64,000 nt of DNA from Sulfurivirga caldicuralii (lineage in GTDB: Bacteria; Pseudomonadota; Gammaproteobacteria; Thiomicrospirales; Thiomicrospiraceae): NCBI RefSeq assembly GCF_900141795.1, contig NZ_FSRE01000001.1, positions 248,001 to 312,000 on the forward strand, read 5' to 3'. The notes beneath the pieces are model-generated. The model was not told the DNA's origin. It did no database searches and saw only the letters and a program-made list of their open reading frames with translations. Each line of letters opens with the position of its first letter. Position 1 is the first letter of the stretch. Below are positions 37,345-44,250 of this stretch, piece after piece. The position numbers and the translations under genes are program-made.

Positions 37345-38724
37345 ATGCAGATTGATCCGCATATTTTTCGCGCTTACGACATTCGTGGCGTGGTGGGCGA
37401 GGGGCTGACACCCGCAAGTGTTGAACTGATTGGGCGGGCACTGGCCAGCGCCGTGCGCGATGCCGGGGAGGACACGTTGATTGTGGGGCGCGACGGGCGC
37501 CTTTCTGGGCCGGAATTGACAGCCGCGCTCGTGAAGGGCGCGCGTAGCGCGGGTGTGAATGTGATCGACCTGGGTGCCGTGACCACCCCCATGGTTTATT
37601 GGGCAGCGGCCAATACGCCGGGCGTCTCCAGCTGTGCGGCCATTACCGGCTCCCACAACCCGCCCAATTACAACGGCATCAAGATGATGGTGGCGGGCGA
37701 GACCCTGTCCGGCGAGCAGATTCAGGCGTTGCGACAACGCATTGAGCAGGGCGCTTTCCATGAGGGCGCTGGCAATTATGTCCGGCAGGATATTGCGCAG
37801 ACCTATATCGACGACATCGCCGCCAAAATAGACCTGGCGCGACCGCTCAAGGTGGTGGTGGATGCCGGTAACGGCATCGCCGGCGCCTATGCACCGCGCG
37901 CCCTGCGTGCCATTGGCTGCGAGGTGGATGAACTCTTCTGTGAGGTGGACGGCACCTTCCCCAATCACCACCCCGACCCCGCCAAGCCGAAAAACCTTCA
38001 GGACCTGATTGCGCGCGTGAAAGAAACGGGTGCAGATTTGGGGCTGGCATTCGATGGCGATGGCGACCGCTGCGGCGTGGTGGACGAGCAGGGCAATCTG
38101 CTCTATGCCGATCGGCAGATGATGCTCTATGCCTGCGATGTGCTCAGCCGACAGCCCGGTGCGACCATCATTTATGACGTCAAGTGCACCAGCCTGCTGG
38201 GCAAGGAGATCGAGCGCTGTGGCGGCAAGCCGCTGATGTGGCGCACCGGCCACTCCTTTATCAAGAAAAAGATGAAGGAAACGGGAGCGGCGCTGGCGGG
38301 CGAAATGTCCGGGCATATCTTTTTCAATGAGCGCTGGTATGGCTTTGACGACGGCATCTACACCGCCGCGCGCATGTGTGAAATTGTCGCCAAATACGAC
38401 GGGCCAGCCAGCGAACTGTTTGCCCGCCTGCCCAATGCCTATAACACCCCGGAGCTGGAAATTCGCTTCAACGAGGGCGGCGAGCACTTCGCCTTTATGG
38501 ACACGCTGAAGGCTATGGCGGACTTCCCGGACGGCAAGGTGTTTGACCTGGACGGCATCCGCGTGGACTTTGCCGACGGCTGGGGGCTGGTGCGCCCATC
38601 CAATACCACACCGGTGCTGGTGCTGCGCTTCGAGGGGGAGACGCCCGAGGCGCTGGAGCGCATCAAGACGCGCTTCCGCGACTGGATTCACAGGGTTGAT
38701 CCGGACCTTGGGCTGCCGTTTTGA
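37345..38724 (+). CDS. algC: Phosphomannomutase / phosphoglucomutase
   Basis: Interconverts mannose-6-P/mannose-1-P and glucose-6-P/glucose-1-P for exopolysaccharide and LPS precursors. The protein has 459 residues from ATG 37345 (MQIDPHIFRAYDIRGVVGEG) with GAGGAAA upstream. Landmarks: phosphoserine loop TGSHNPPNYNGIK, metal loop FDGDGDRCG, sugar loop GEMSGHIFFNERW and phosphate loop RPSNTTPVLVLRFE. Position between dut and argB is the same as in Pseudomonas. Confidence 0.95.
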   Translation: MQIDPHIFRAYDIRGVVGEGLTPASVELIGRALASAVRDAGEDTLIVGRDGRLSGPELTAALVKGARSAGVNVIDLGAVTTPMVYWAAANTPGVSSCAAITGSHNPPNYNGIKMMVAGETLSGEQIQALRQRIEQGAFHEGAGNYVRQDIAQTYIDDIAAKIDLARPLKVVVDAGNGIAGAYAPRALRAIGCEVDELFCEVDGTFPNHHPDPAKPKNLQDLIARVKETGADLGLAFDGDGDRCGVVDEQGNLLYADRQMMLYACDVLSRQPGATIIYDVKCTSLLGKEIERCGGKPLMWRTGHSFIKKKMKETGAALAGEMSGHIFFNERWYGFDDGIYTAARMCEIVAKYDGPASELFARLPNAYNTPELEIRFNEGGEHFAFMDTLKAMADFPDGKVFDLDGIRVDFADGWGLVRPSNTTPVLVLRFEGETPEALERIKTRFRDWIHRVDPDLGLPF

Positions 38725-38726
38725 GC

Positions 38727-40297
<1,571 letters not shown>

Positions 40298-40307
40298 GGA
40301 AAACGCC

Positions 40308-41168
40308 ATGAGCTTGCCTACAACGATTCATCTGTTTCTGGTGGATGGTGACCCGGAAGGGATCAAGGTGATCAGCAAGGACAACTGGACGGGGCAGGCT
40401 GTGATGACACCGCGGGCAGCGCTTAAGCGTGCGTTGACTAGGCCGGAGTTGGACAAGGCCGGGGTTTATGTGTTGTTCAGCAAGGACGAGATTACTGGCC
40501 AGTTTGAACTTTATGTCGGTCAGGCCGATCAGATGAACAAGCGTTTGAAGCAGCATCTCGCCAAAGGGTTCTGGACGCAGCTTATCGCCTTTTCCAGCAT
40601 GGACGACCGCCTCAACCGTGCAATCATCAGTCATCTGGAGGCACGTCTGATCGAGTTGGCTACACAGGCAAACCGCTGGAAACTGCATAACTTTCAGTTG
40701 CCGCAAACGCCAAATTTGTCCGAAATGGATCGGGCGGCCGCCGATGCGTTTCTTTCCGAAATGCTGATGATCTACCCTGTTCTTGGTGTGGACGCGTTTG
40801 AAAGCGGAGGCGCGAGTCATGATTCTGAATCAGTGTCATCATCTGACAAGGGATTACTGCTTTATCTAAGGGAGCGGGGTGCCAAGGCCAGGGCACGGTA
40901 TGACGAACAGGGTGTTATGGTGCTAAAAGGCTCGCAATTACGTAAAGATATGACGGCGAGTGCACCGGAAGCTGTAAAGCGCATCCGCGAGGAGTTGATG
41001 GCGCGAGGCGTTATTGGCCAGCAGGATGGTAAGTTGCTGTTTCTTCAGGATTATCTGTTCAGTTCGCCATCCGGTGCCGCCAGTGTTCTGACGGGGGCAA
41101 GTATCAATGGCCGCACCGCATGGAAAGATGCGCATGGCGTGCCGCTAAAAGATTTAGAAAAACAGTGA
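40308..41168 (+). CDS. GIY-YIG nuclease family protein with DUF4357 domain
   Basis: A 286-residue protein: an N-terminal GIY-YIG-like region (AGVYVLFSKDEITGQFELYVGQADQMNKRL, given here as two motifs GVYVLF and LYVGQAD), then a helical middle (NRAIISHLEARLIELATQAN) and a C-terminal DUF4357-like domain (SVLTGASINGRTAWKDAHG). Such proteins are common next to restriction and defence genes; their substrate is not established. It is in an accessory stretch inside the argB-pyrE neighbourhood and its stop overlaps the GTG start of the TSUP gene (GTGA). Confidence 0.78.
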   Translation: MSLPTTIHLFLVDGDPEGIKVISKDNWTGQAVMTPRAALKRALTRPELDKAGVYVLFSKDEITGQFELYVGQADQMNKRLKQHLAKGFWTQLIAFSSMDDRLNRAIISHLEARLIELATQANRWKLHNFQLPQTPNLSEMDRAAADAFLSEMLMIYPVLGVDAFESGGASHDSESVSSSDKGLLLYLRERGAKARARYDEQGVMVLKGSQLRKDMTASAPEAVKRIREELMARGVIGQQDGKLLFLQDYLFSSPSGAASVLTGASINGRTAWKDAHGVPLKDLEKQ

Positions 41169-41944
41169 GCGAGTACCTTCTCGAGCAGCTGCTGCTGTTT
41201 GCCATCTCGCTGGTGGCGAATTTCTTTTCCGCGCTGGCAGGTGGGGGCGCGGGCTTGTTGCAGTTGCCCGCGTTGCTGTTCCTCGGCCTGCCGTTCGCCG
41301 TCGCCTTGGCCACCCACAAGGTGGCCAGCGTGTTTCTGGGGCTGGGGGCAACGGCGCGACATCTGCAGTCTTCCCGTTACGACTGGCGCTTTGCCGCGTT
41401 TATTCTTGCCACCGGCGTGCCGGGCGTGCTCACCGGTGCGGCCATTATCCTCACCATTCCGGACCGCTGGTCGCAGCTGGCGCTGGGTATACTGACCACA
41501 GCCCTCGGCATTTATTCCATGGTGCAGCCCAATCTGGGCATGGAGGCACGTTCCGCCCATCGCGATCTGAAGGGCATGGTCATTGGCGGTGCCGCGCTGT
41601 GGCTGATCGGCGCGCTCAATGGGTCGCTGACCTCCGGCACGGGGTTGTTTGTCACCCTGTGGCTGGTGCGCTGGTTCGGGCTGGATTACAAGACGGCGGT
41701 GAGCTACACGCTGATTCTGGTGGGCATCGTCTGGAACGGCTCAGGTGCGCTGATGTTGGGCTGGCTGGGGCAGATCCGCTGGGACTGGCTGCCGGCACTG
41801 ATTGCCGGCTCGCTGCTGGGGGGCTATCTGGGCGCGCACCTGTCGATTGTGAAGGGTAATCGGCTGGTCAAGCGCAGTTTTGAGGCCATGACATTGCTGG
41901 TGGGGCTGGCCCTGATTGGTCGGGCAATGGGGATGAGTGTATGA
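41165..41944 (+). CDS. TSUP (TauE/SafE) family permease
   Basis: A 259-residue polytopic membrane protein with about eight hydrophobic segments. The family hallmarks are the N-terminal AGGGAGLLQLPALLFLGLP, which repeats in the second half as GSLTSGTGLFVTLWLVRWFG. TSUP permeases move sulfite, sulfonates or other sulfur anions. GTG 41165 overlaps the stop of the GIY-YIG gene and its TGA overlaps the merR ATG (ATGA), so it is translationally coupled with the mercury regulator. Substrate here is not known. Confidence 0.85.
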   Translation: MSEYLLEQLLLFAISLVANFFSALAGGGAGLLQLPALLFLGLPFAVALATHKVASVFLGLGATARHLQSSRYDWRFAAFILATGVPGVLTGAAIILTIPDRWSQLALGILTTALGIYSMVQPNLGMEARSAHRDLKGMVIGGAALWLIGALNGSLTSGTGLFVTLWLVRWFGLDYKTAVSYTLILVGIVWNGSGALMLGWLGQIRWDWLPALIAGSLLGGYLGAHLSIVKGNRLVKRSFEAMTLLVGLALIGRAMGMSV

Positions 41945-42342
41945 GGATCCGAGAACTCGCCAAGGCCGCTGGGGTCAATGTGGAAACAGTACGCTACTAC
42001 CAGCGCCGTGGCCTGATTGATACGCCACCGAAGCCGTTGCACGGCTACCGGTGCTATGCCCCCGAAACGTTGCAGCGATTGCGCTTTATCCGTCAGGCGC
42101 AGCAGTTCGGCTTTACCCTGAAAGAGATCGAAGCACTGCTTGCCATCAGTGATGCCCCGTGCGGGGAAGTGCGTGCACAGATTGAGGCCAAGCTGGAAAA
42201 AGTGCGCGCTCGCATGGCGGCGCTGCAGCGACTGGAAGCGGCGCTGGTGCAGCAGCTGGATCACTGCCGTCAGCAGTCCAATCAGGCGCGCTGCCCGCTG
42301 ATCGAGGCGCTTCTCCATACCGATGAATTTTCAGCAAATTAA
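41941..42342 (+). CDS. merR: Mercury-responsive regulator MerR
   Basis: Transcription activator/repressor binding Hg(II). The protein has 133 residues with an N-terminal winged helix (MRIRELAKAAGVNVETVRYY). The three mercury ligands correspond to C74, C109 and C118; their spacing (35 and 9) is identical to C82, C117 and C126 of Tn501 MerR, and the C-terminal CPLIEAL is the family signature. Unlike many mer loci it is not divergent but upstream of, and in line with, the operator it should bind. Confidence 0.9.
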   Translation: MRIRELAKAAGVNVETVRYYQRRGLIDTPPKPLHGYRCYAPETLQRLRFIRQAQQFGFTLKEIEALLAISDAPCGEVRAQIEAKLEKVRARMAALQRLEAALVQQLDHCRQQSNQARCPLIEALLHTDEFSAN

Positions 42343-42345
42343 TGC

Positions 42346-42377
42346 TTGACTCCGTACCTTGGTACGGCCTCTAAACT
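42346..42377 (+). promoter_or_regulatory. mer promoter-operator
   Basis: TTGACT (-35, 42346-42351), the dyad CCGTACC-TT-GGTACGG (42352-42367), and TAAACT (-10, 42372-42377). The long spacer (20 bases to TAAACT, or 19 if CTAAAC is used) with the palindrome filling it is the distorted arrangement that MerR-type regulators act on; the dyad is close to the Tn21/Tn501 mer operator (CCGTAC-n4-GTACGG). Confidence 0.85.
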
Positions 42378-42409
42378 GTGGGTGAACCTGATAGGAGGCC
42401 GAACCACAA

Positions 42410-42817
42410 ATCCTGTCCCGTTGGGGCGACAAGGCGGGTGCTTTGGGTGTTCTAACCGCTGCCATGGGATGCAGCATGTGTTTCCCTGCCATCGCCAGTC
42501 TGGGTGCAGCGCTTGGGTTGGGCTTTCTCGGTCAGTGGGAAGGGCTGCTGATAAATACCCTGTTGCCAGCCTTTGCCTGGCTGGCCTTGATTGCCAATGC
42601 GCTGGGCTGGCTGGCACACCGTCAGTGAGGGCGTACCTTGTTGGGGATTTCCGGTCCGATTCTGCTGCAGCTCTCCCTCTATCCCTGGTTTTAGTATGGC
42701 TGGAGCACCTACGTGACGTAGGGGGCGCTCGTGTGGATGGTGCTGGTGGTCGTCTGGGATCTGCTCTGGCCGGCCAACCACCGTTGCGATGAACAGTGCG
42801 AAATCAAGGAGGGTTGA
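42410..42817 (+). pseudogene. merC: merC-like mercury transport gene with three in-frame stops
   Basis: One continuous frame encodes a MerC-type membrane protein: GDKAGALGVLTAAMGCSMCF (Cys pair), SLGAALGLGFLGQWEG, LINTLLPAFAWLALIANALG; then HRQ, TGA 42626-42628, GRTLLGISGPILLQLSLYPW, TAG 42692-42694... (stops at 42692 and 42719), YGWSTYV, and VWDLLWPANHRCDEQCE to TGA 42815. The stops fall where homologs have sense codons, without frameshifts. No good start codon is seen: ATC 42410 stands where the ATG should be, after AGGAGG at 42393. Membrane import of mercury is therefore probably lost here. Confidence 0.82.
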
Positions 42818-42819
42818 TC

Positions 42820-44250
42820 ATGTCCTGTTGTAAAGAAAATGCCTGCACTCAATCCAGCCAGCATGTGCTGATTATCGGTACGGGATCAGCTGCCTTCGCG
42901 GCGGCCATTGAGATTGTGGAAAACGGCGGGCGTGCTACGCTGATTGAGGCCGCCGAGCAGATTGGCGGCACCTGTGTGAATGTAGGCTGTGTGCCGTCCA
43001 AGATTCTGATTCGTCAGGCGCAGTTGAATCACTGGCGTCGGCACACGCCGTTTGACGGTCTGCCTGCGTGTGAAGCTGAAGGGGATCGCAGGGTGTTGAT
43101 TGCTCAGCTCAAGGCACGCGTGGACGAACTGCGTCATGCCAAATACGAAAAAATGCTGGACACCTATCCCGGCATCAAGGTGGTGCATGGCCATGCCCGT
43201 TTTTTGACGGCCGATACATTGGTGGTGGAAAAGCCGGATGGTTCACGCCAGCAGTTGCGGGGCGATGGGGTGCTGATCGCTACGGGGTCACGTCCGCATA
43301 TCCCGGAGGTCGAAGGGCTTGCGGCGACGCCTTACTGGACTTCGACCGAAGCACTGTTCAGCGAAGAAACGCCGCCGCGAATGATCGTGCTGGGGGCCGG
43401 CGTGGTGGCGTTGGAACTGGCGCAGGCCTATCAGCGTCTGGGTACGCAGGTGACGCTGCTGGCCCGTCGCGGACTGCTCACCAACCAGCCGGCCGAAGTG
43501 GGTGATACGTTGCGGCAGGCGCTGAAAGCGGAAGGCATGAACATCCTGACACGGACACAACCGCAACGGGTCGAGCATGCGGGTGGCATCTTTCAAGTGC
43601 AAACACCGGCAGGCGTGCTGCAGGCAGAACGGTTGCTGGTCGCCACGGGGCGGCAGCCCAATACGGATGTGCTGGCGCTGGAGCAGGTGGGCGTCCGGAT
43701 CGATAGCCGCGGCCAGATTGTGGTGGACGAACAGTTGCGTACCAGCGTGCCGGGTGTCTGGGCGGCAGGCGACTGCACCCAGTTGCCCAAGTTTGTTTAT
43801 GTGGCGGCGGCTTCCGGTCGCATTGCTGCCAGCGCCATGCGGGGCGGGTGTGAAACGCTCGACTTGAGCGTGCTGCCGCAGGTGGTGTTTACCGATCCGC
43901 AGGTGGCGACAGTGGGGCTGAGCGAAGACGAAGCGCAGGCGCAGGGGATCAAGGCCATATCACGGCGTTTGCCATTGGATCAGGTGCCGCGCGCATTGGC
44001 CAACTTTGAAACAACCGGTTTTGTACAGCTGGTGGCCGAAGCCGGGTCCATGAAACTGCTGGGGGCGCAGATTGTCGCGCCGGAGGCGGGCGAGATGATC
44101 GAAGCAGTGGCGATTGCGTTGCGCAAGGGGCTGCGCGTGCAGGATCTGGCCGGCGAGTTGATGGCTTATCTTACCTGGAACGAAGCGCTCAAGCTGTGCG
44201 CACAGACGTTCTTCAAGGATGTCAATAAGCTTTCGTGCTGCGCAGGGTGA
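42820..44250 (+). CDS. merA: Mercuric reductase (without N-terminal MerA domain)
   Basis: FAD/NADPH enzyme reducing Hg(II) to Hg(0). The protein has 476 residues. FAD motif VLIIGTGSAAFAAAI; redox-active GGTCVNVGCVPSK with C52 and C57; NADPH motif IVLGAGVVALELAQAYQRLG; dimerisation domain with VFTDPQVATVGLSEDEA; and the C-terminal vicinal cysteine pair C473-C474 that loads mercury. This pair distinguishes MerA from lipoamide dehydrogenase. The HMA-like NmerA domain is absent. GGAGGG before ATG 42820 lies in the end of the merC relic. Confidence 0.94.
   Translation: MSCCKENACTQSSQHVLIIGTGSAAFAAAIEIVENGGRATLIEAAEQIGGTCVNVGCVPSKILIRQAQLNHWRRHTPFDGLPACEAEGDRRVLIAQLKARVDELRHAKYEKMLDTYPGIKVVHGHARFLTADTLVVEKPDGSRQQLRGDGVLIATGSRPHIPEVEGLAATPYWTSTEALFSEETPPRMIVLGAGVVALELAQAYQRLGTQVTLLARRGLLTNQPAEVGDTLRQALKAEGMNILTRTQPQRVEHAGGIFQVQTPAGVLQAERLLVATGRQPNTDVLALEQVGVRIDSRGQIVVDEQLRTSVPGVWAAGDCTQLPKFVYVAAASGRIAASAMRGGCETLDLSVLPQVVFTDPQVATVGLSEDEAQAQGIKAISRRLPLDQVPRALANFETTGFVQLVAEAGSMKLLGAQIVAPEAGEMIEAVAIALRKGLRVQDLAGELMAYLTWNEALKLCAQTFFKDVNKLSCCAG

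Follow-up and report, generated by a model that had tools for sequence, protein, structure and literature searches.

The mer locus of Sulfurivirga caldicuralii described here lies within a window of 64,000 nucleotides (the whole stretch of DNA that was analysed, from whose first letter all positions are counted), and it raises the question of how a mercuric reductase is maintained where the importer gene beside it is broken. The locus is probably a merR-merC-merA operon of the chromosome in which recent substitutions have disabled the MerC importer and a MerR-inducible MerA reduces the Hg(II) that enters the cell otherwise. MerR and its operator would still switch on merA once Hg(II) is in the cell, the Hg(II) entering by Mer-independent routes and being reduced by MerA. 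Such a scheme presumes an expressed and active merA, the absence of a working importer, and a low-level entry of mercury sufficient to keep the reductase; through polarity, the untranslated merC part of the message might reduce the expression of merA.

The merC pseudogene occupies positions 42410–42817 of the plus strand. Translation from 42410 placed a TGA at codon 73 (42626) and TAG at codons 95 (42692) and 104 (42719), and zero frameshifts were encountered through 42817; the first-pass annotation, which had described a continuous MerC frame of more than 400 bases with these three stops and had ascribed the decay to substitutions, is borne out on both counts. Against the Pfam MerC family (PF03203; cut-off 27.6 bits), the whole frame with its stops read through scored 55.8 bits, and the 72 codons ahead of the first stop alone scored 44.5 bits; the same 72-codon piece fell under both cut-offs of the longer NCBIfam MerC models (115.2 vs 140 and 111.5 vs 170). 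Inspection by eye found neither ATG, GTG nor TTG in frame from the TAG at 42392 up to the TTG at 42443, hence the start of merC has been lost, whatever its original place. The same annotation had noted an ATC where ATG was expected, which is right in substance, an ordinary start being absent, but imprecise as to place: the starts of 21 aligned relatives, as picked by script, lie 2 to 6 columns upstream of 42410. A ribosome-binding-like AGGAGG (42393–42398, plus strand; found by eye) precedes this frame, at the usual distance to a start at about 42404. An importer gene would have an open frame and a start codon; this one has three stops and no ordinary start.

Upstream of the remnant, the mer operator/promoter (42346–42377, plus strand) comprises TTGACT, the dyad CCGTAC-CTTG-GTACGG and a -10-like TAAACT after a 20-bp spacer, and it stands ahead of the structural genes, as in a mer operon. 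The pattern TTGACT-N2-GTAC-N4-GTAC, which begins at 42346, is matched strictly in several mer loci of relatives, including G264 and G269, and the 20-bp spacer is shared by some of the relatives' loci (e.g. L074 and L076); G008, G019, G021 and the stretch from G002 do not match the strict pattern. The operator looks intact; the first-pass annotation had judged it functional by appearance. The merR gene (41941–42342, plus strand, codirectional with merA) shares an ATGA overlap with the TSUP gene upstream and encodes a putative mercury-type regulator; its score against TIGR02051, the best among the 16 models listed, was 150.6 bits, just under the cut-off of 150.85. The Cys spacing of this MerR is presumably like that of Tn501 MerR. 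Hg(II)-bound MerR activates transcription from a long-spacer promoter.

Downstream, merA (42820–44250, plus strand) encodes a mercuric reductase that lacks the HMA (NmerA) domain. The frame is open and exceeds both NCBIfam mercuric reductase cut-offs (663.4 vs 600 bits, and 527.2 vs 454.45 bits for TIGR02053), and an alignment with the solved MerA 1zk7, which spans residues 15–476, located both the redox and the C-terminal Cys pair, so that the curated scores and the two Cys pairs expected of the reductase of a mer operon are all present. The gene is thus to all appearances intact, in line with the earlier reading that detoxification is kept, and the data support a locus that has retained regulator and reductase while substitutions inactivated the importer. 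In place of the HMA-like domain, the MerA proteins of the window and of G002, a second genome of the genus, begin with a short N-terminal tail that bears a Cys pair. In the window this tail (42820–42860) contains CC and a further Cys, and that of G002 is similar; it may serve as a minimal docking site for mercury. By eye, the HMA-like domain is absent from the MerAs of G008, G019 and G021 too, whereas a GMTCxxC-type N-terminal domain, which differs from the window's, was seen by eye in five of the eight class-level MerAs of the MerA tree described below.

The first-pass annotation had offered two explanations for the loss of merC, that transport is dispensable or that another importer has taken it over. 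The latter found no support. The genome (1.67 Mb in seven contigs, 99.99% complete) holds no second MerC, the broken frame being its only MerC match, and the search for merT and merF elsewhere in the genome, which that annotation had proposed, returned neither; the same searches were over the cut-off for MerT in three of 62 family genomes (G008, G019 and G021) and for MerF in 14 of 369 class genomes. MerE gave no match in 12 genomes, in a search that yielded no positive-control match either. Searches with MerC, MerT, MerF and mercury MerR thus gave no sign of a further mer locus in this genome. A non-Mer importer in this genome is possible. The gene for a TSUP (TauE/SafE) membrane protein that immediately precedes merR (41168–41944, plus strand; Pfam PF01925, 144.8 bits) was considered as a mer-specific replacement importer and ruled out, because a third genome of the genus, G001, has this gene at 80% identity to the window copy without a MerA over the cut-off; the gene is therefore not tied to mer.

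Mer operons without importer genes are already known. According to a survey of 272 mer operons, merT was counted in 147, merC in 56, merF in 25 and merE in 63; merR was present in 195 and arsR in 22, and merR was codirectional in 52, if this is what is meant there by "convergent" (PMC3466566). The same survey describes the importers as absent from archaeal mer operons, apart from one merP homologue, and it reports operons of a reductase and a regulator with no importer, as in the window locus; the locus differs from these in that a young pseudogene of the importer can still be recognised. In E. coli, Hg(II) reached MerA inside the cell and was reduced in strains both with and without Mer transport, and faster with it (PMC4570782). 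Since importer-less operons are known and Hg(II) can reach MerA without Mer transport, we read the locus as an inducible, importer-less reductase, and as a clean but fairly ordinary case of a known kind. Judged by title or the start of the abstract, no published merC pseudogene of this kind was among the literature matches listed, and literature joining Sulfurivirga with mercury was not found.

In the merRTPA operon of Hydrogenovibrio SP-41 (PMC6501319), and in two loci of this family with the order merR-merT-merA, those of G008 and G021, merR is codirectional with the structural genes, as it is in the window. The gene order in G008, together with the small genome sizes in the family, may point to sulfur oxidisers of the Thiomicrospira type, to which Hydrogenovibrio SP-41 belongs. 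The MerAs of G008 and G021 also lack the HMA domain; these two genomes differ from the window in having MerT between merR and merA, where the window has a broken merC in the importer slot, and in a -35 box unmatched by the strict operator pattern, which the window operator matches. Loci with an intact MerC (G264, G193, G269 and others) encode proteins 72–76% identical to the window frame over the first 72 residues, and G264 and G269 share its strict operator pattern, but their MerC frames are open whereas that of the window contains stops.

How recently merC was broken was judged against these relatives, a comparison that had been recommended from the outset. Among 25 loci queried (L006 and L043–L066), L006 gave no match and L062, L063 and L064 were dropped as short or distant, leaving 21 relatives in the alignment, with L058 cut at 150 residues; a MerC-family match in G033 was not used, since tblastn with the window frame gave no match there. 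Eight intact proteins (L043–L049 and L065) formed the close set from which invariant columns were taken. Their mean pairwise identity was 0.708 before the place of the first stop and 0.626 after it, and the window frame was identical to them at 0.712 and 0.599, respectively. Each intact protein against the other seven gave 0.645–0.738 before the stop place and 0.602–0.648 after it, so that the window frame falls inside the intact range in the first part and just below it in the second. In a tree of 17 rows built with 16 of the 21 relatives (L055, L056, L059, L060 and L066 were left out), the end branch of the window was third longest over the full length, seventh before the stop and fifth after it, and its after/before-stop ratio of 1.08 was the seventh highest of the 17 tips; the frame therefore shows no sign of having decayed faster past the first stop than ahead of it. 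Because the frame, stops apart, is about as near to the eight intact MerCs as those are to one another, these comparisons point to a recent decay that is spread roughly evenly over its length. At the 53 columns invariant in the close set the window differs at five, namely by the first stop, by the third stop and by three missense changes, where intact relatives, each left out in turn, differ at zero to four. Under a neutral model in which mutation continued until the frame held three stops, 10.8–19.7 missense changes on average would be expected at these columns, depending on mutation bias, and three or fewer occurred in 2–11% of runs (P 0.02–0.11). A plain pseudogene, as our preferred reading has it, would predict so few missense changes poorly; the shortfall argues weakly against purely neutral decay of merC and may reflect chance or remaining constraint.

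Within the family, MerA exceeded the TIGR02053 cut-off in five of the 62 genomes (the window's own, G000, together with G002, G008, G019 and G021). Four genomes of the genus were compared; merA was found in two of these (the window's own and G002), with an intact MerC or MerT in neither. The MerA of G002 is the nearest to that of the window, at 59% identity, and the two form a clade with support of 100/100 in a tree of 16 rows. This tree drew on 15 stretches, L078 (a partial MerA) and L085 and L086 (no MerA match) being left out, and was rooted on an outgroup of three of the four loci from named relatives (33–42% identity). The G002 merA is an open frame with both Cys pairs. Genome searches of G002 returned no MerC and no MerT, nor was there a mercury-type merR, only a generic match of 20.6 bits to the mercury MerR model. 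Its merA adjoins a divergent gene, which we take to be uppP, and the intergenic stretch has no operator pattern. A gene run ending in argB and the TSUP gene is common to G000, G001 and G002, and some 2.7 kb separate the G002 merA from a piece of TSUP with 77% identity to the window copy; the TSUP gene of G002 is split over two contig ends (77% and 86% identity), where the join is inferred. Given this shared gene run and the closeness of merA to TSUP, the window and G002 merA genes sit in the same neighbourhood, and a single common insertion of merA in both genomes is likely. The suggestion that transport may be dispensable gains support, from a sister MerA that has neither MerC, MerT nor a mercury-type MerR beside it.

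These data also bear on the reading that competes best with ours, which we regard as unlikely: that the whole mer locus is being lost, merC having been hit first by chance and merR and merA being intact for lack of time. The youth of the MerC decay favours this reading and tells against the preferred one, for there may so far have been too little time for a mutation to strike merA. So does the genus, where a MerA over the cut-off is missing from two of the four genomes (one of them, G003, only 84% complete) and where G002 has neither MerC nor a mercury MerR. Within the pair, moreover, G002 MerA carries the longer branch (0.69 vs 0.40 for the window), a point against the preferred reading. Against a loss in progress stands that G002 keeps a lone, open merA with both Cys pairs, of the same clade as the window's, and two open merA frames at 59% identity would suggest long selection on merA. 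Within one genus, a freshly broken merC in one genome and a sister merA without MerC or MerT in another document the loss of the importer ahead of that of the reductase. This suggests that mercury entry by other routes can suffice to keep merA, makes the need for active Hg import testable in close relatives, and cautions that merA alone does not imply a complete mer system.

It is improbable that the shortened MerC still works. An ORF at 42443–42628, from the TTG at 42443 (or an unusual start) to the TGA at 42626, would encode 61 residues with two hydrophobic stretches and a GCSMC motif, the first stop falling just past the second stretch, and identity to the eight intact MerCs ahead of that stop equals theirs to one another (0.712 vs 0.708). 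In the survey cited above MerF and MerE have two spans and MerC four (PMC3466566), and the product would be a two-span importer of the MerF/MerE type; were this so, a MerF-like importer would have arisen from a four-span one by point mutations. However, the part behind the stop, in its branch ratio and its identity only just under the intact range, shows no clear excess of decay over the part ahead, an ordinary start preceded by a clear ribosome site is lacking, and a Pfam scan of the 72-residue fragment listed MerC as its sole importer family, with neither MerF nor MerE.

A sequencing or assembly error is very unlikely, since it would have to account for several substitutions and no indel in 408 bases, with merR and merA open on both sides, in a genome as complete and as little fragmented as this one. 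Least credible of all is low-level read-through giving a trace of full-length MerC, to which the scarcity of missense changes for three stops and the near-normal family identity behind them would lend some colour, but which would have to pass three serial stops from no ordinary start codon, on a missense effect that is weak and hangs on the mutation bias assumed.

The merC remnant and merA stand in a region that varies within the genus. Behind the TSUP gene, G001 and G002 have three genes, presumably msrA, nnrDE and uppP, and the G002 copies had no match in the 64-kb window, hence the region behind TSUP (41168–44250 in the window) differs between genomes; in G003, the 84% complete genome, TSUP itself gave no match. 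The solo merA of G002 (L073, 4990–10148) is followed by ORFs that by eye resemble a copper-oxidase cluster. Between argB and the TSUP gene of the window lies an ORF of 286 residues (40308–41168) for which the other three genomes of the genus gave no match. It has matches of 34–38% in G041, G048 and G009, while those in G041 and G050 that complete the list are short and weak; it was possibly inserted, to judge by this distribution. A second damaged gene is found about 3 kb from merC, at 38721–39381, where a gene that we assume to be RhuM-like is split over two frames, with its N-terminal part in one and a conserved-looking C-terminal part in the other; its G002 counterpart is also short, at 138 residues.
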